Below, one piece after another: positions 1 through 16,175 of a DNA stretch of 27,208 bases. Position numbers and translations under genes: made by a program. This DNA comes from a virus, in the IMG/VR virus record IMGVR_UViG_3300042090_003237, positions 1 through 27,208 of that record; one strand, 5' to 3'. Position 1 is the first letter of the stretch, and each line of letters opens with the position of its first letter. The notes under the pieces were generated by a model. That model was not told where the DNA came from. It ran no database searches and was given only the letters and a program-made list of their open reading frames with translations.

Positions 1-1302
1 ATGTCAAACACTCGCCAGACCACCAACACCAGCCGGGCCCTCTGCGTCATCATGGGCGGCGGCCAGGGCAAGCGCCTGTTTCCGCTCACGAAGGACCGCG
101 CCAAGCCCGCCGTGCCGCTCGCCGGCAAATACCGCCTGGTGGACATCCCGATCTCGAACTGCATCAACTCCGGCTACCGGCGCATTTACATTTTGACGCA
201 GTTCAATTCCACCTCGCTGAACGGCCACATCTCGCGCTCCTACAAGTTTGACGGATTCACCCCCGGCTTCGTGGAAGTCCTCGCGGCGCAGCAGACGCTC
301 AACAACAACTCGTGGTATGAAGGCACGGCCGACGCGGTGCGCAAAAACCTCGTCCACTTTTTGAACCATGATTTCGACCAGCTCGTCATTCTGAGCGGCG
401 ACCAGTTGTATCGGATGAATTTCCAGTCGGTGGTTTCGCAGCACATCGTGACCGGCGCGGACATCACCATCGCCACCATGCCCGTCGGCCGCAGCGAGGC
501 GATGGCGCTCGGCATCATGCAGATTGACGACACCAACCGCATCACGCGCTTCGTGGAAAAGCCGAAGGAGGACGCCACGCTGGACACGCTCAAGCTGCCG
601 GCGGCGATGCAGGCGAACCTCGGCATCAAGGACGGCGAGCATTACCTCGCCTCGATGGGCATCTACGTTTTCAGCCGCCGGGTCATCTGCGAGCTGCTGG
701 ACAACCCGCTCTCCGACTTCGGCAAGCACATCATCCCGCACGCCATCCAGTCGCGCCGCGTTTTCTCCTACGTTTATCAGGGCTACTGGGAGGACATCGG
801 CACCATCCGTTCTTTTTTCGAGGCGAACCTGGATCTGGTTTCCGAGCTGCCGCGCTTCAACTTCTTCGACATGACCGCGCCGATTTTCCACGCGCCGCGC
901 AACCTGCCCGGTTCCAAAATCAACGGCGCGCAGATTGACCATGCGCTCGTCGCCGACGGTTGCATCATCAACCGCGCGACCATCAACCGCACCATCGTCG
1001 GCCTGCGCACCATCATCGGCTCGGGCACGGAGCTGAACCGGGTCATCATCCTGGGCAGCGACTATTATGAATCCATCGAGTCGGTGAAGCACCACGAACA
1101 AAAGGGCTGGCCGCGCGTCGGCATCGGCGAGAACTGCAAGATCGAGAACGCCATCATTGACAAGAATGCGCGCATCGGCAACAACGTGACCATCTCGCCC
1201 GCCGGCAAGCCGGAAAACCACGACGACAAGCTTTACTACGTCCGCGACGGCATCGTGATCATCCCGAAGGACGCGGTGATTCCGCACGGCACGGTGATTT
1301 GA
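1..1302 (+). CDS. glgC: Glucose-1-phosphate adenylyltransferase (ADP-glucose pyrophosphorylase)
   Basis: This enzyme makes ADP-glucose from glucose-1-phosphate and ATP in the cytoplasm, the committed step of bacterial glycogen synthesis. The 433-aa protein is full length for the family. It shows the nucleotide-binding loop GGGQGKRL (residues 19-26) followed by the RAKPAVPLAGKYRLVDIPIS segment, GTADAVRKN (108-116), GDQLYRMN (133-140), the sugar-phosphate motif FVEKP (184-188) and YWEDIGT (262-268). The C-terminal third has the hydrophobic repeat pattern of a left-handed beta-helix, which carries allosteric control in this family. The ATG is the first base of the window, so its ribosome binding site and any upstream start cannot be seen. 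It is the only gene here that is clearly host housekeeping, and it runs opposite to the phage operon. Confidence 0.97.
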   Translation: MSNTRQTTNTSRALCVIMGGGQGKRLFPLTKDRAKPAVPLAGKYRLVDIPISNCINSGYRRIYILTQFNSTSLNGHISRSYKFDGFTPGFVEVLAAQQTLNNNSWYEGTADAVRKNLVHFLNHDFDQLVILSGDQLYRMNFQSVVSQHIVTGADITIATMPVGRSEAMALGIMQIDDTNRITRFVEKPKEDATLDTLKLPAAMQANLGIKDGEHYLASMGIYVFSRRVICELLDNPLSDFGKHIIPHAIQSRRVFSYVYQGYWEDIGTIRSFFEANLDLVSELPRFNFFDMTAPIFHAPRNLPGSKINGAQIDHALVADGCIINRATINRTIVGLRTIIGSGTELNRVIILGSDYYESIESVKHHEQKGWPRVGIGENCKIENAIIDKNARIGNNVTISPAGKPENHDDKLYYVRDGIVIIPKDAVIPHGTVI

Positions 1303-1472: not shown

Positions 1473-1838
1473 ATGTTTACAAATGACGCATTCATGGATA
1501 GAGCTATCAGAGCTTTTTTAGCTCCGGTCATTTGGAGTGCCATTGCTTACTTTGCTGCCAGCTTCATTTCACGGCTTGCTTCATCAGAGGCACGCGGGAT
1601 TTATTTTCGCAGACTCATTCTCATGCTCGTAGCAGCTTTCATTATTGCGGGGCTTTATCCGGCGTTGGGAGCTGCATTCATCGGGAATGGAGCCGACCCA
1701 CGCAATGAGGAGCGCCACGCCCTTTGGATGGCAAAGCAGTTGGGCACAAGTTATGGCATTCATGCGATTTGGGCTTGGTTGTTGATAGCTTTGATTGATT
1801 GGCCAAAGGTGCGGCCTAACACCTATCAAGCCCGATAG
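1473..1838 (+). CDS. Small integral membrane protein of unknown function (cassette-like ORF)
   Basis: I do not recognise this 121-aa protein. It has about three hydrophobic segments (roughly residues 13-35, 46-70 and 95-108), with a charged stretch around residues 71-90 between the last two, so it probably sits in the inner membrane. Its DNA is visibly AT-richer than glgC and the phage, and it lies on the strand opposite the phage. It is boxed by the 13-bp inverted repeats at 1453 and 1809. The second repeat falls inside the last codons, so the C-terminus is encoded by repeat-derived sequence. There is no convincing Shine-Dalgarno; residue 8 (Met) is an alternative start. The compact layout resembles an integron gene cassette or a very small mobile unit carrying one gene. 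Confidence 0.6.
   Translation: MFTNDAFMDRAIRAFLAPVIWSAIAYFAASFISRLASSEARGIYFRRLILMLVAAFIIAGLYPALGAAFIGNGADPRNEERHALWMAKQLGTSYGIHAIWAWLLIALIDWPKVRPNTYQAR
1809..1821 (-). repeat. 13-bp inverted repeat, right copy
   Basis: GTGCGGCCTAACA is the perfect reverse complement of the copy at 1453-1465. It contains GCCTAAC, matching the inverse integron core RYYYAAC. It overlaps the 3' end of the 121-aa reading frame. Confidence 0.6.
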
Positions 1839-11133: not shown

Positions 11134-11681
11134 TTACGATTGCAGCAGTTTCAACAACCGGTCCCGCTGGGCCTTCCACGCCTCGTCATTGCCCTGCGCG
11201 GCCACCATCAGTTGCAACATGATCCTTGCCTGTTCCTGGTTCCGGGCCTGCGCCGCCAGCTCCAGCCGTTCCCAGCTCTGGTCCAGCGCCTCGTCCAGTG
11301 TCAGCCCAGCGGCGGCGGCATGGAGGGCGACGGCGCGGCTGAAACTGTCCGCTCCATGATCTGTTTCACCATTTCCGGCGGCATCCCGGCCATCTGGTTT
11401 TGGGCGCGGGCGAGCTGCCGCGCCGACCAGACGAAAAAACCCTTCTCATTCACCTCCTGCACGGCCGCATAGAGCAGCTCGTAGCTTGTCGGATCCACCG
11501 CGCCGATCTCGTTGGCTGGAATCCCGCACACCGCCGCCACCAGCGCGATCTCATGGTCCAGTTTTGGAAACAGCGTGACGTATTCGCGCACCTGTATCTG
11601 GCGCACCGTCACTTCGCGCGTGGTTTTGTCGTTGAAGGTGATGGTCAATTTTCGTCCGCCCAGCAATGTGTCTGTATTCAT
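11134..11681 (-). CDS. Tail assembly chaperone, -1 frameshift product (gpGT-like)
   Basis: This is the predicted fusion made if ribosomes slip back one base at GGGTTTTTTC (11433-11442). It keeps residues 1-82 of the 126-aa chaperone (to EKGF) and continues FRLVGAAARPRPKPDG in the -1 frame for 100 more residues to the TAA at 11134-11136, giving 182 aa. The -1 frame is closed by TGA two codons before the slip site and fully open after it. It has no early ATG, and its end (LTLDEALDQSWERLELAAQ, then ...DRLLKLLQS) reads as a helical protein. This is the layout of lambda G/GT and of many siphophages, immediately before the tape measure. It also accounts for the otherwise empty interval 11137-11300. 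Confidence 0.78.
11301..11681 (-). CDS. Tail assembly chaperone (gpG-like)
   Basis: The zero-frame protein is 126 aa: a beta-rich N-terminus (LTITFNDKTTREVTVRQI) followed by helices, then a low-complexity end (SAAPSPSMPPPLG) typical of unshifted chaperones. In siphophages this protein coats the tape measure while the tail tube polymerises. The start overlaps the lipoprotein stop by ATGA and is preceded by AACAATCAAAAAAATATG, so the C-terminal codons of the upstream gene double as an A-rich leader. Identification rests on position before the tape measure and on the frameshift signal, because these chaperones diverge strongly in sequence. Confidence 0.75.
   Translation of the reverse strand: MNTDTLLGGRKLTITFNDKTTREVTVRQIQVREYVTLFPKLDHEIALVAAVCGIPANEIGAVDPTSYELLYAAVQEVNEKGFFVWSARQLARAQNQMAGMPPEMVKQIMERTVSAAPSPSMPPPLG
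11433..11442 (-). promoter_or_regulatory. Programmed -1 ribosomal frameshift site
   Basis: On the minus strand the sequence is GGGTTTTTTC, read in frame as AAG GGT TTT TTC. It contains G_GGT_TTT and, overlapping it, T_TTT_TTC; both fit the X_XXY_YYZ slippery heptamer rule. Slipping here joins the 126-aa chaperone to the -1 frame ending at 11134. Confidence 0.72.
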
Positions 11682-12349
11682 ATTTTTTTGATTGTTAATT
11701 TAGGAATGGAATTGGTTGGCACCGGCACCGTGTAGCTCAAATTGCTGCTCAACGCGCTCACGGCGCCGGCGGCGCTGTAATTGAACGCGGCAAAATCGTA
11801 GGTTGTGCCGCAGTTCAGGTTTGAGACTGTCAGGGTCAGGTTGGTGCCGGCGTCATTGGTGGCCGTGTAAACGCCGGGCAGAATGCCCCACACAATTTTT
11901 GTGCCCGCCACGAGCTGACTGGGAGATTGAGTCCACGACAGGGTCACATTGGCCGCGTTCGTTTCCACCAGCCGGAAATAACGGTGCGGTGAAAGATCGT
12001 TTGTGAATGCGACGCTGTTGGTGGACCAAACGCCCCAATCCTGCCAGCCGCTGTCCGCGCTGGTGCTCGTCTGGACCGCCACCAGATTGGTGACAGTCCA
12101 GAACAATTGAAACACCGCCGGTGGATTCGTGGCGGATGTCGTGGCCACGGCGCCCACGGCGGTCTGCTGCCGCGGCGTAAGCAACGGCGTGACGGGAACC
12201 GCTGGCATGATCGAAATGTCGGCATGGCAAGCCACAACCCAAAGCAGGATGACCAGCAGCGCAAGGGCTATCACTTTACGCCAGGTAAAAATCAGCTTAA
12301 AGCGAGACATCAAATCCGACTTGTCGAAATCCGGGGGCTGGGTGCTCAT
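11678..12349 (-). CDS. Phage-encoded fibronectin type III lipoprotein
   Basis: This 223-aa protein has a basic N-terminus, a strong hydrophobic segment (about 28-41: VIALALLVILLWVV) and a lipobox-like VVAC, with Cys at about residue 41. It is probably exported and lipid-anchored rather than part of the capsid. Residues about 135-210 form an Fn3-type domain (VTLSWTQS, GTKIVWG, LTVSNLNCGTTYDFAAFNYSA), and RYFRLVET before it is a phrase common in exported verrucomicrobial proteins. The first ATG overlaps the upstream stop (ATGA); Met14 would give a more usual signal length. It sits between the SGNH protein and the tail chaperone. A surface role in the lysogen, such as adhesion or superinfection exclusion, is possible but not shown. 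Confidence 0.7.
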   Translation of the reverse strand: MSTQPPDFDKSDLMSRFKLIFTWRKVIALALLVILLWVVACHADISIMPAVPVTPLLTPRQQTAVGAVATTSATNPPAVFQLFWTVTNLVAVQTSTSADSGWQDWGVWSTNSVAFTNDLSPHRYFRLVETNAANVTLSWTQSPSQLVAGTKIVWGILPGVYTATNDAGTNLTLTVSNLNCGTTYDFAAFNYSAAGAVSALSSNLSYTVPVPTNSIPKLTIKKI

Positions 12350-15126
12350 TGTATGCCTGGCGCATTGTTCCTGCGCAAATGGAAGTAGGAGCCTTTGCCC
12401 AGATCAACATAGCCATCACCATTATTATAGGGACAAACCTGAATCAGAATGTTTGCCGTGTTGGTGATGACAATCGTGCCTTGACCCCACCATTTTGAAG
12501 CGAGATTTCCGGCTGGTGCTGCGCCAATGCCGATGCAGCCGCCTGACCCGGATGTGGCGTTCGCTATGATGCTCATACCATTGGCGTTGGCGTCCAGGTT
12601 TCCAGCCCCGGCGCTAAATTGAACGTCCATGATGTAACCTGAAAGGTCAGTGATGTTCCCCGATGAAAGCATGATCTGGCCCTTCGTCCCGGCACTGTTG
12701 GTGGACAGCGCGCAAATCATGTAGTCCACCGAGTAGTAGCCGGGCGCAACATTCGGCACAGTCAAAGCCGTCGTTAAGGTGTTGTTGTTTATGATCGGCA
12801 GATTCGCCGAGTTGGTTGCCGAATAGCCGATGTAGTATTCACCGCCGAAGGCCAAGATGTTTGTCTGTGGCGTTCCTGATGGAGCAAGCATAACCGCCGT
12901 GATGTTTGTTCCATCTGATGAGAGCTGTGCGCCGGTCGTGCCGTTGTAAGACGGTTTGTTTGTGGCCGGCAGCACAACGCCATTTGTCGCAGTCATTGTC
13001 GTCGCCAGTGTCGCGCCGCCTGCCGAAGAATCAAATCCACCCGTTACATGCTGGATGCTGTCGGTTCGAGGATTGTAATTCCAGTTCGCACCGCCGCCGT
13101 AGTTTCCTAAATGGTATCCAGTTGAATCCAATCGGATAAAACCTTCATTGGCATTTTGCGGTGAAGAAAACACTAACCCAAAGACATTCCCGTATGCGGT
13201 CGAGTTTCCATATTGATATTGCAAGTTTGGCGCTCCGATTTTGGAGAATGAATAAAACCGCGCGTCGTTTCCATTTGATGTGTAGGAATTCAAAGAAACG
13301 TCATCGGCTGTGTTCTGGGAAATGAGCGAATCAAATCCGATGGCCTGCATCAGTTGATTGACCGCCCAAACTCGAAGCTGATGCTGCGGATGAATGCCGG
13401 CGCCGCTGGCCGCGAAGCCGGCCCCGATGTCGAAATTATTGTTCATCCAGTTTGTTCCGCCTTGATCCATATAAAGCTGGTATTGGTCAAAGAACGTCCA
13501 TCCATTTGAAGCGGCAACCGATTTTATCGACGCGTCTTCACCGGTGTTCGCCGTCCCTGTAGGGTCAGTGCCGCTCATGATCGGATTCGGGCTGACTAAA
13601 ATAACGTCCGCATTGGGACAGCCGGCCATGAAGTTTGTAAGCGTGTAAGGCGAATAGACCGCCCAATCGTTGCTTGAACTTATTTGCTGGATGATTACCA
13701 GGTTCGGCTGAATCGCCGCCGCCAGTGCCGTCCAGTTCGTGAATGAAGTATAGTTGACCCAGTCCGCGCCGCCGACTCCCTCATTAAAAACCTGGACGCC
13801 TTTTGATGTCCGGTCGCAAATGCCGCATTGATAAACCTTCACTGGATTGCTGGACGCGGCCAGCTTGATGTTATACACGCCGGCCGGCATCGAAAATCCA
13901 ATCTCTTTGATCGTCAGCGAGCTGGCGCTGCATGAAACCGAACCGAGGGTTGTATAGCTGCCGCCTTCGAGAGATGCCGACACCGTCAAAGTTCCCGCCC
14001 CTGGTTCGGCGAAATAATAAACTTCAACGTAGCTCGCCCATAATCTCGCCGACGAGCTTCCAGAGCAATCGCCGTCGAGGACAACGCTTCCGCCGGCCGG
14101 CAGATATGGCGTCTGAAATTGTGTCGCCAGCGGGCCATAAACCGGGCCGTTTGTGGCATACGCGCCGCCGGCGTATGTCGTGCAACCACCTCCCCATCCG
14201 GCGTTGCCGCCTGCCCACATCCCATGCGCCTGAAAATATGCCTGATACGCGTCATACTGATTTGCCGCGAGCGAGTCGCCGAGCGTTACAATCGTGAACG
14301 GGCGGCTTTGCGCCAATGCCTGCCAAGAATTCGTCGCAAGATAAAGGCGGGTTGCAGCGAGCGCCTCGCTCCGGTCCTTTGCCATCGTCAACAAGGTTGC
14401 CGGATTGATGGCTGGATTTGTTCCCAGCGTTGCTGTGTTTGTCACCGCCAGCGCCAGGCCGTTCAATGGCGTCCCATTCGGCGCATTGGTCGCCGTGGTG
14501 GCAATGGCGGCGGTCCCGGACGATGTGGCATACACTGCCGTCAATGCATTCGATGCGGTCGTCCCGCTGACAATCATTATCCAGTTCAAATTTCCCGTGG
14601 CCGAAGTTTTTGTCCATTGCTGGACCAGATTGGTCAAGGTCGTGTCGAACTGGTTGTAGAGCGATCCGTAGCCGGCCGTGTAAATGCCGTTTGGATTGGC
14701 ATTGGTTCCGGCCCAGACGGAGATCGGCAGCGGAATGCCCGCCGGCGGCGCGCTGGTGGTGCTGCCGACCGAGCTGCTGCTGGTGTAATACGCCTGCACG
14801 CCGTTGGTGAGCAGATATGAAAAATTGCCGCCGTTTGAATTAGCCAGCGATGTCCACGCGCTGAAGCGTCCCACATTTAGGCCGCCGTTCAGGATGGCAA
14901 CGCCGCTCCAGGTGCCGCTGTTGGTGGTGATGACGGCCTGCGTGTTGGTGGCCAGCGTTGTGACGGCCGCAAACTTATAGCTGCTGCCGCCGTTCGTCTG
15001 GTAGAGACCAATGACAAGCGGGATGGCGATGTCATTGGTGGCCGTGTAGGAGTTGGCCGCCGGCAGCTCGCCGGGCATCAGGAAGGCGGCAATGGTCGCC
15101 AGTAAAATCAAAAATCTATTTTTCAT
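12346..15126 (-). CDS. Exported SGNH/GDSL-hydrolase-like large protein
   Basis: I start this 926-aa protein at the ATG at 15126, because MKNRFLILLATIAAFLMPGE gives a clear signal peptide; the open frame continues upstream only as antisense-like sequence. Residues 1-270 are Thr/Asn-rich beta structure. An SGNH hydrolase domain spans about 275-600: TIVTLGDSLA (Ser285), the NEGVGGADW Gly block (448-456), SSND (Asn486) and GIHP (His579). The Asp normally three residues before that His is Ala576, so it would work as a Ser-His dyad or be impaired. The last 320 residues are beta-rich and end near WWGQGTIVIT. SGNH domains in phages usually deacetylate or cleave surface glycans. It lies between the tail tube and chaperone genes, where tail fibres are not normally found. 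Confidence 0.72.
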   Translation of the reverse strand: MKNRFLILLATIAAFLMPGELPAANSYTATNDIAIPLVIGLYQTNGGSSYKFAAVTTLATNTQAVITTNSGTWSGVAILNGGLNVGRFSAWTSLANSNGGNFSYLLTNGVQAYYTSSSSVGSTTSAPPAGIPLPISVWAGTNANPNGIYTAGYGSLYNQFDTTLTNLVQQWTKTSATGNLNWIMIVSGTTASNALTAVYATSSGTAAIATTATNAPNGTPLNGLALAVTNTATLGTNPAINPATLLTMAKDRSEALAATRLYLATNSWQALAQSRPFTIVTLGDSLAANQYDAYQAYFQAHGMWAGGNAGWGGGCTTYAGGAYATNGPVYGPLATQFQTPYLPAGGSVVLDGDCSGSSSARLWASYVEVYYFAEPGAGTLTVSASLEGGSYTTLGSVSCSASSLTIKEIGFSMPAGVYNIKLAASSNPVKVYQCGICDRTSKGVQVFNEGVGGADWVNYTSFTNWTALAAAIQPNLVIIQQISSSNDWAVYSPYTLTNFMAGCPNADVILVSPNPIMSGTDPTGTANTGEDASIKSVAASNGWTFFDQYQLYMDQGGTNWMNNNFDIGAGFAASGAGIHPQHQLRVWAVNQLMQAIGFDSLISQNTADDVSLNSYTSNGNDARFYSFSKIGAPNLQYQYGNSTAYGNVFGLVFSSPQNANEGFIRLDSTGYHLGNYGGGANWNYNPRTDSIQHVTGGFDSSAGGATLATTMTATNGVVLPATNKPSYNGTTGAQLSSDGTNITAVMLAPSGTPQTNILAFGGEYYIGYSATNSANLPIINNNTLTTALTVPNVAPGYYSVDYMICALSTNSAGTKGQIMLSSGNITDLSGYIMDVQFSAGAGNLDANANGMSIIANATSGSGGCIGIGAAPAGNLASKWWGQGTIVITNTANILIQVCPYNNGDGYVDLGKGSYFHLRRNNAPGIQ

Positions 15127-15386: not shown

Positions 15387-15941
15387 TCAGATTCCGGACA
15401 CGTTCAGGGTGCTGGGCGCGGATCCAAGCCAGGTGAATTTGAACTTGGGCTGGATGATGTTCGGCTCCACGACGGTGAACTCCTCGCAATCAAGGTCGGC
15501 CCACCAGTCGTCGGTGATCCATGGGGCGCCGTTTTGCCAGCGCACGCGCTTGAGCCAGCCCTGCAGGCTGCTCGAGGTGAGCGGATAAAACGTGGTGTCC
15601 GCCAGTCCGATGAGCGGGGACTTGTAGAAACCGGTCAGCGCGAGCCGGCTCATTTCGTTCATGGTGACTTCCATCGTCAGCTCGTGCTGGGGGCGCAGGA
15701 TGTTGAAGGGCACGATGGTTCCCTGGATGGTGGGCTGCATGATGGTCACGGCCTTGGAGGTGCGTTTGTCCTGCGGCAGCTTGGCCACGGTGCCAAGGCC
15801 GAAGGTCAGCCATATCGGGTCGGCCGGGTCGGGTTTGGCGCTGTTGGATACGACGCCGGCGGCCGGGATGTTGAATGCCTGCCCGGCCGGGGCGAAGTAG
15901 AGATAATCGCCGGAGGCGATGACGGATGGTTGTTGTTGCAT
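15387..15941 (-). CDS. Major tail tube protein (putative)
   Basis: This 184-aa protein is predicted to polymerise into the non-contractile tail tube. Size and beta-rich composition fit: an N-terminal SGDYLYFAPAGQAF strand, a central TMEVTMNEMSRLALTGFY segment and an aromatic, acidic C-terminal third (NGAPWITDDWWADLDCEEF). Its position, after the neck proteins and before chaperone and tape measure, is that of the tube protein. No sheath gene precedes it, so the tail is not contractile although the head is Mu-like. The start lies 3 bases after the cold-shock gene, behind the A-rich leader ACCAACCATAAAATAAAATATG minus its first two bases, consistent with independent high translation. Sequence identity is not specific enough to be certain. 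Confidence 0.68.
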   Translation of the reverse strand: MQQQPSVIASGDYLYFAPAGQAFNIPAAGVVSNSAKPDPADPIWLTFGLGTVAKLPQDKRTSKAVTIMQPTIQGTIVPFNILRPQHELTMEVTMNEMSRLALTGFYKSPLIGLADTTFYPLTSSSLQGWLKRVRWQNGAPWITDDWWADLDCEEFTVVEPNIIQPKFKFTWLGSAPSTLNVSGI

Positions 15942-15944
15942 ATT

Positions 15945-16175
15945 TTATTTTATGGTTGGTGATGTTTGTTGGGCGGCGGGTTGGATCAGCCGCACGCGCG
16001 CCGCTCTCTCACCGCGCTGGCTGTTTTCGATTTCAAACTCGACCAGGTCGCCCTGGTTAAGCTTCGTGCCGTAACGGACGGCGGAACCGTGGACAAAGAC
16101 ATCCGGCGCGTCATCGCGGACGATGAAGCCGAAGCCTTTCTTGGCATCGAACCATTTAATTTTTCCGGTTTGCAT
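15945..16175 (-). CDS. Cold-shock-domain RNA/DNA-binding protein (CspA family)
   Basis: This 76-aa protein is a near-canonical cold-shock domain. It shows GKIKWFDAKKGFGFI with RNP1 at residues 13-18 (KGFGFI), RNP2 at 26-32 (VFVHGSA, usually VFVHFSA) and the closing LVEFEIENSQRGERAARVRLI. These proteins bind single-stranded nucleic acid and melt RNA structure. The gene lies between a neck protein and the tail tube gene, 4 bases after the former and 3 before the latter, so it belongs to the late operon and is made during virion assembly. Its last codons also form part of the A-rich leader of the tail tube gene. The operon contains strong stem-loops it could act on. Phe to Gly in RNP2 is a notable change at a base-stacking position. 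Confidence 0.93.
   Translation of the reverse strand: MQTGKIKWFDAKKGFGFIVRDDAPDVFVHGSAVRYGTKLNQGDLVEFEIENSQRGERAARVRLIQPAAQQTSPTIK

Follow-up and report, generated by a model that had tools for sequence, protein, structure and literature searches.

Export signals on proteins encoded among tail genes raise the question of where the particles of a virus are finished. The question is posed here by IMG/VR virus record IMGVR_UViG_3300042090_003237, a contig of 27,208 bases analysed over its whole length (the window, in whose coordinates all positions are given unless a relative is named). The locus concerned is a slot between the tail tube and tail chaperone genes, in which a large and a small protein with export-type N-termini are encoded. 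We give a probability of roughly 0.55 to the reading that this slot encodes modular, glycan-active adsorption proteins resembling tail fibres or tailspikes, which would be made as Sec precursors and join the virion outside the cytoplasm. An earlier sequence-only reading of the locus had named membrane-crossing fibre proteins as its second choice, and it is this alternative that the comparison of relatives favoured.

Relatives were collected by scans with the capsid, BR0599 and the N-terminal region of the large slot protein (identities from 87% down to about 25%), and the stretch between tail tube and tail chaperone was read in each. It was complete in 13 distinct phages (the window, L002, L008, L009, L047, L049, L050, L051, L056, L058, L059, L063 and L075); L048, which did not differ from L047 across the 12 kb compared, was not counted separately, and the tube gene upstream of the slot was not separately confirmed in the gene listings of L058 and L063. 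In 13/13 of these phages the slot was occupied by one protein or two, each with an N-terminus of export type. The pairing of two genes was not constant, L002, L008, L049, L050, L058, L063 and L075 having a single one. In the more distant L024 and L067, exported proteins lay directly upstream of the chaperone gene. Outgroups (L006, L023, L061, L066, L070 and Rhodobacter phage RcapMu) had an empty slot or only a small non-exported open reading frame (ORF) there. Since the slot was filled in all clade members and empty in outgroups, the uninserted arrangement exists only outside the clade; the earlier description of the genes as inserted in the tail module, and the idea that related prophages might lack the insertion, thus hold relative to the outgroups but not within the clade.

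With starts allowed up to about 110 codons in for slot proteins and only near the homology-based start for core genes, signal peptides were called in 20/21 slot proteins and in 0/108 proteins of the core late set (13 families), which excluded chance as their source. The sole slot miss was L075, where a Pro-rich tail comes first and the hydrophobic stretch lies at residue 62; the call for L047 5492 came from an internal start, though the true N-terminus is hydrophobic. The tip protein gave low-scoring calls in 4/12 cases, and calls were also obtained for proteins encoded after the capsid gene (4/4) and after the tip gene (7/8). The export trait appears tied to this clade, since fibre-like proteins encoded after the tip gene in the more distant L070 and L023 were without a signal peptide. 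In the large slot protein of the window the signal peptide reads MKNR-FLILLATIAAFLMPG-ELPA/AN, and its n/h/c pattern is retained in homologues despite different residues; the signal peptide noticed earlier on this protein was therefore borne out by pattern and by rule-based call. Sec export and cleavage of the slot proteins are strongly suggested by these sequence features.

The fibre-like character of the slot proteins was suggested by their modular construction. In six of the 13 phages a homologous N-terminal region, or its tail motif, is preserved in the large protein (33–41% identity), and the C-termini differ. The first 200–250 residues of the window protein match slot proteins of L063 (41%, E 1e-26), L051 (36%, E 8e-22) and L058 (33%, E 3e-19); L056 aligns best over residues 124–299 (34%, E 6e-18), the match in L059 is weak (E 0.01), and the L075 protein has the tail motif in common with the window protein. 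This motif is weak in the window copy and better in L063 and L075, the L063 copy matching tail and tailspike proteins of Klebsiella and other unrelated phages (best E 5e-5). Behind the N-terminus, L058 and the partial L055 carry SGNH domains by profile phrog_8480 (E 1e-32 and 4e-23), and the C-terminal part of L063 shows SGNH motifs. The L058 module is 27–28% identical over 88% to minor tail proteins of Gordonia and Shewanella phages, and the two such homologues examined were without a signal peptide. An alpha-galactosidase-like domain is found in L009 (Melibiase_C, E 1e-4), with alpha-galactosidase-like motifs at the same place in L051, and L075 has beta-helix-like repeats, as judged by eye. 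Among the slot proteins only that of L056 has a fibritin foldon (Fibritin_C, 23.9 bits against a cut-off of 21), together with weak matches to 'tail protein' and 'fibritin neck whisker'. A kept N-terminus joined to an exchanged, glycan-active C-terminus is the construction of phage receptor-binding proteins; in those of Klebsiella prophages, SGNH and pectin-lyase folds are the most frequent enzyme domains (PMC13123978).

Two further observations were made. Short-repeat exported slot proteins (TTNYSRTNLSS or FGTNAPGSLTASN) are encoded in L002 (13754-14416), L008 (13031-13927), L009 (13630-14304), L049 (6052-6783) and L050 (5951-6751), and these are possibly repeat fibres of variable length. In L067 (2406-5919) a DDFNRADTTEPDLG domain is common to four adjacent genes, with a signal peptide only in the last, chaperone-adjoining one, so that exported and non-exported forms of one domain stand side by side.

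On the favoured reading the slot proteins would be synthesised late, together with the tail proteins, and cleavage by signal peptidase would set the mature fibre free in the periplasm. Once lysis breaches the membrane, the fibre would be attached to the tail exterior through its conserved N-terminal region, and its C-terminal domain, which in the window protein is SGNH-like and perhaps an esterase, would bind or trim a host surface glycan at the next infection. Attachment outside the cytoplasm and glycan action at adsorption are proposed because of the fibre homology. To our knowledge, no tailed-phage route lets a Sec-exported protein join a cytoplasmic virion, and for this reason the final attachment step is conjecture. 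An export signal also conflicts with the usual criterion for a tail fibre, cytoplasmic assembly; as a signal peptide is present, the slot proteins are termed fibre-like and not ordinary fibres, the criterion being usual and not strictly defining.

The want of a known route weighs against the reading, as do the manner of signal-peptide calling, the state of the window SGNH-like domain and the structure models. All signal peptides were called by one home-made rule-based caller, not SignalP. Profile searches with the SGNH-like domain gave no Pfam, PHROG or PDB match, and block V (Asp-x-x-His) is incomplete, with His579 there and Ala576 in place of the Asp three residues before; in relatives it is intact (L058 DGVH, L055 DGTH, L063 DGLH). 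The SGNH domain named in the earlier reading stands as far as its motifs, which occur in the expected order (LGDS/LGDSL with Ser285, block II Gly450/453, block III N486-D487 and H579), but block III GxND reads SSND (Gly to Ser), and a motif-only assignment with these two substitutions makes enzyme activity uncertain. The domain is weakly similar to the gp31 esterase of Arthrobacter phage Anekin (E 0.4), and in a profile comparison with L058/L055 the GDS strand only was aligned. AlphaFold models of the whole 926-amino-acid (aa) protein (pLDDT 33) and of its N-terminal region (pLDDT 52; 62–80 and all beta over the first 60 residues) did not reach the confidence needed to assign the N-terminal domain to a type, and Foldseek of the latter model against viral and PDB libraries gave no significant match. 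Whole-length and domain searches of viral contigs, phages, plasmids and Verrucomicrobia genomes returned no direct homologue of the window proteins beyond the shared N-terminus. The N-terminal profile gave one weak match among 384 class genomes, a search that had no positive control and says little on host copies.

The gene arrangement and the small partner bear on how the slot is expressed. The large and small slot genes overlap by 4 nucleotides (ATGA), as had been noticed, and the small gene and the chaperone gene do likewise; promoter-like or terminator-like sites above chance were not found around the slot genes, which sit in the late tail module, translationally coupled with tail genes and with no local promoter. 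The small protein had been taken for a lipobox-bearing Fn3 protein. A long n-region is indeed followed by the lipobox VVAC (LLVILLWVVAC, then HAD), but the Fn3 match is below threshold (E 0.022; stronger, E 2e-4, in the counterpart at L051 6169-6771), and the lipobox is not clearly conserved, the small partners in L009, L051, L056 and L059 showing none. A Pro-rich region similar to the small ORF upstream of the large gene forms an in-frame fusion with the exported slot protein of L058 (46-2784), L059 (5532-6104), L063 (3865-6450) and L075 (3273-5039), and in L075 no start codon lies between the Pro-rich tail and the hydrophobic stretch. The fused proteins retain AxA-like sites after that stretch (RFAALA/Q, RPAVA/S), which fit cleavage, and an anchored form may also occur; fusion in four phages may point to an interaction of the Pro-rich product with the slot protein.

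The main rival, rather unlikely in our judgement, holds that the slot proteins never join the virion and are late enzymes acting on the dying cell's envelope, where they would strip or mask the cell's own receptor glycan, so that progeny would not be trapped on debris and superinfection would be blocked. Both the signal peptides themselves and the glycan-active cargo would suit such receptor-destroying enzymes, and phages can export enzymes before lysis, for example endolysins that carry a true signal peptide or a SAR anchor (PMC6116005). The foldon, the tail motif and the shared N-terminus, however, would serve no evident purpose in a soluble enzyme, the slot proteins of L002, L008, L049 and L050 look like enzyme-free repeat fibres, and the post-capsid and post-tip proteins are exported too. 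The fibre homology would equally agree with ordinary cytoplasmic tail fibres whose hydrophobic segment at the N-terminus would serve for virion attachment or loading and not for export, and the Pro-rich tail that precedes the segment in L058, L059, L063 and L075, uninterrupted by an internal start in the last, would fit as well. This is made improbable by the classical n/h/c pattern, which even in fused proteins is accompanied by AxA-like cleavage sites, by the same feature at three non-homologous gene positions, and by homologous modules elsewhere that are without this feature.

Lysogenic conversion, in which an SGNH enzyme and a lipoprotein anchor would form a surface pair altering the lysogen's receptor, had been the first choice of the sequence-only reading, and is suggested by the signal peptide, the lipobox, the Fn3-like partner and a similar pair in L051. 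It is nevertheless the least likely explanation, and a very improbable one, because the genes form part of a coupled late operon, have no separate promoter, and have counterparts in the slot of all close relatives; a moron would be expected to have its own promoter and terminator and to be present sporadically. The enzyme type also swaps between relatives, the partner is often absent and the lipobox is not clearly kept. Of the earlier view that both proteins are directed to the envelope, the exported appearance of both stood and the envelope pair was not supported. The preferred reading, of fibre-like proteins added from outside, can be widened to all outer decorations (post-capsid head, slot tail and post-tip fibre proteins), which would be Sec-exported and would dress, at lysis, naked particles built in the cytoplasm; this is possible, and on balance doubtful. 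We know of no two-compartment assembly in tailed phages.

Table. Positions of the slot genes, their predicted domains and neighbouring features in the window.
Feature	Position	Strand	Basis or remark
Exported protein after tail-tip gene, 297 aa	2119..3012	-	Relatives have common domain, variable C-terminus
Tail assembly chaperone	11301..11681	-	Downstream border of slot; Phage_TAC_7 E 5e-5, slightly below cut-off
Small exported slot protein, 223 aa, ATG start	11678..12349	-	Fn3-like, lipobox VVAC; ATGA-coupled both sides
Large exported slot protein, 926 aa, ATG start	12346..15126	-	Predicted signal peptide, N-terminal fibre domain, SGNH-like domain, beta-rich C-terminus
SGNH-like domain, residues 274-600	13327..14307	-	Motifs only: GDS S285, G450/G453, N486, H579; block-V Asp absent
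N-terminal region, residues 24-200	14527..15057	-	Common to L063, L051, L058; second half also in L056, L075
Tail-fibre motif NPNGxxxxGxGSLYxQFD..QQWxK..GNxNW, residues 142-195	14542..14703	-	phrog_21909 weak match
Predicted Sec signal peptide, residues 1-24 of large protein	15055..15126	-	Cleavage predicted near LPA/A-N; sequence and rule-based call
Small Pro-rich ORF, 51 aa	15191..15346	-	Between tube and large slot protein; similar region fused to slot protein in relatives
Tail tube protein	15387..15941	-	Upstream border of slot; by position and homology among relatives
Exported protein after major capsid gene, 180 aa	17642..18184	-	Signal-peptide call; position

From about 2.1 kb on, the minus strand of the window is the head-tail half of a Mu-like siphophage, in which terminase, portal, Mu-G-like, protease, DUF2190, capsid, tube, chaperone, tape measure, BR0599, NlpC-like and tip genes were recognised; the closest isolates by capsid were RcapMu-type and other transposable phages (identity <31%). 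GlgC, encoded at 1-1302 (+), is 85% identical to that of a genome sharing its class with a Verrucomicrobia metagenome-assembled genome (MAG), and this end of the window is therefore host DNA. One relative was located in Verrucomicrobia MAG Centralia_MAG_180, and the clade is one of Mu-like siphophages of Verrucomicrobia. The host flank, with glgC and a small membrane protein gene at 1473-1838 (both +), adjoins the phage end, which could be placed approximately only, and fits random Mu-like insertion. The head-tail module also contains a gene for a cold-shock-domain protein, immediately upstream of that for the tube (15945-16175, minus strand), and a similar protein is encoded in L006 (12261-12455).

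Exported proteins after the tip gene were also seen in L048 (15617-18055), L090 (524-1471), L092 (168-815), L093 (231-2222), and L094 and L004 (reverse strand). Their common domain reads NFWxxxGxxVSF...LSGxLxxDGTN, and the window protein ends in a fibre-like GDSNYLYYCWGTNAWGRLAITNW. Post-capsid exported proteins are encoded in L002 (11085-11603), L007 (11092-11616), L008 (10420-10959), L009 (10990-11604), L049 (2282-2767) and L050 (2153-2659); in several phages their hydrophobic stretch resembles a type IV prepilin N-terminus (FTLTQLLVVVAIIGLL) with Glu5 lost, and a signal peptide on a head-decoration protein would be unusual. A disulphide-based reason for export was dropped, as cysteine content varies and the mature part of L056 appears cysteine-free.

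Modular glycan-active phage fibres are well known, and the fibres of tailed phages are taken to assemble in the cytoplasm. Precedent for signal peptides on tail fibres, or for Sec-signal fibre-like proteins throughout a tailed-phage clade, was not found in the literature searched, which did not cover subscription journals. Missing signal peptides were once read as support for a phage, not bacterial, origin of variable proteins (PMC6199706). Clade-wide export signals on fibre-like proteins would mean either that assembly follows a new route or that these viruses release enzymes of the tailspike type ahead of lysis, and either outcome would change the annotation of such genes; the slot proteins are also a ready list of candidate receptor-binding proteins for phages of a poorly studied phylum.

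Among known systems, E. coli phage G7C gp63.1 and the Klebsiella prophage receptor-binding proteins (PMC13123978) are likewise modular proteins encoded among tail genes, in which an SGNH-like domain is combined with a fibre-type N-terminus and a variable C-terminus. Unlike these SGNH-type fibres and tailspikes, the window protein has a Sec signal peptide and lacks the canonical Asp, and its gene lies between tube and chaperone, not after the tip. The phrog_8480 'lysophospholipase L1-like esterase' minor tail proteins of Gordonia (JuJu gp32) and Shewanella phage vB_Sb_QDWS have an SGNH module homologous to that of the L058 slot protein, the homology being shown for L058 and L055 and not for the window copy; those examined were without a signal peptide. 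The foldon of T4 fibritin (whisker), a protein not known to carry an export signal, is matched above the curated cut-off in L056 and not in the window protein. Exported endolysins (fOg44 Lys44, SAR endolysins; PMC6116005) are phage enzymes that pass through Sec before lysis, as the slot proteins are predicted to do, but they are lysis enzymes, whereas the slot proteins are fibre-like and encoded in the tail operon. RcapMu, also a Mu-like siphophage, has the same head-tail gene order as the window and a homologous capsid (27%), but nothing large lies between its tube gene (RcapMu48) and the next tail gene (RcapMu49), and RcapMu43, encoded after its capsid gene, is without a signal peptide.

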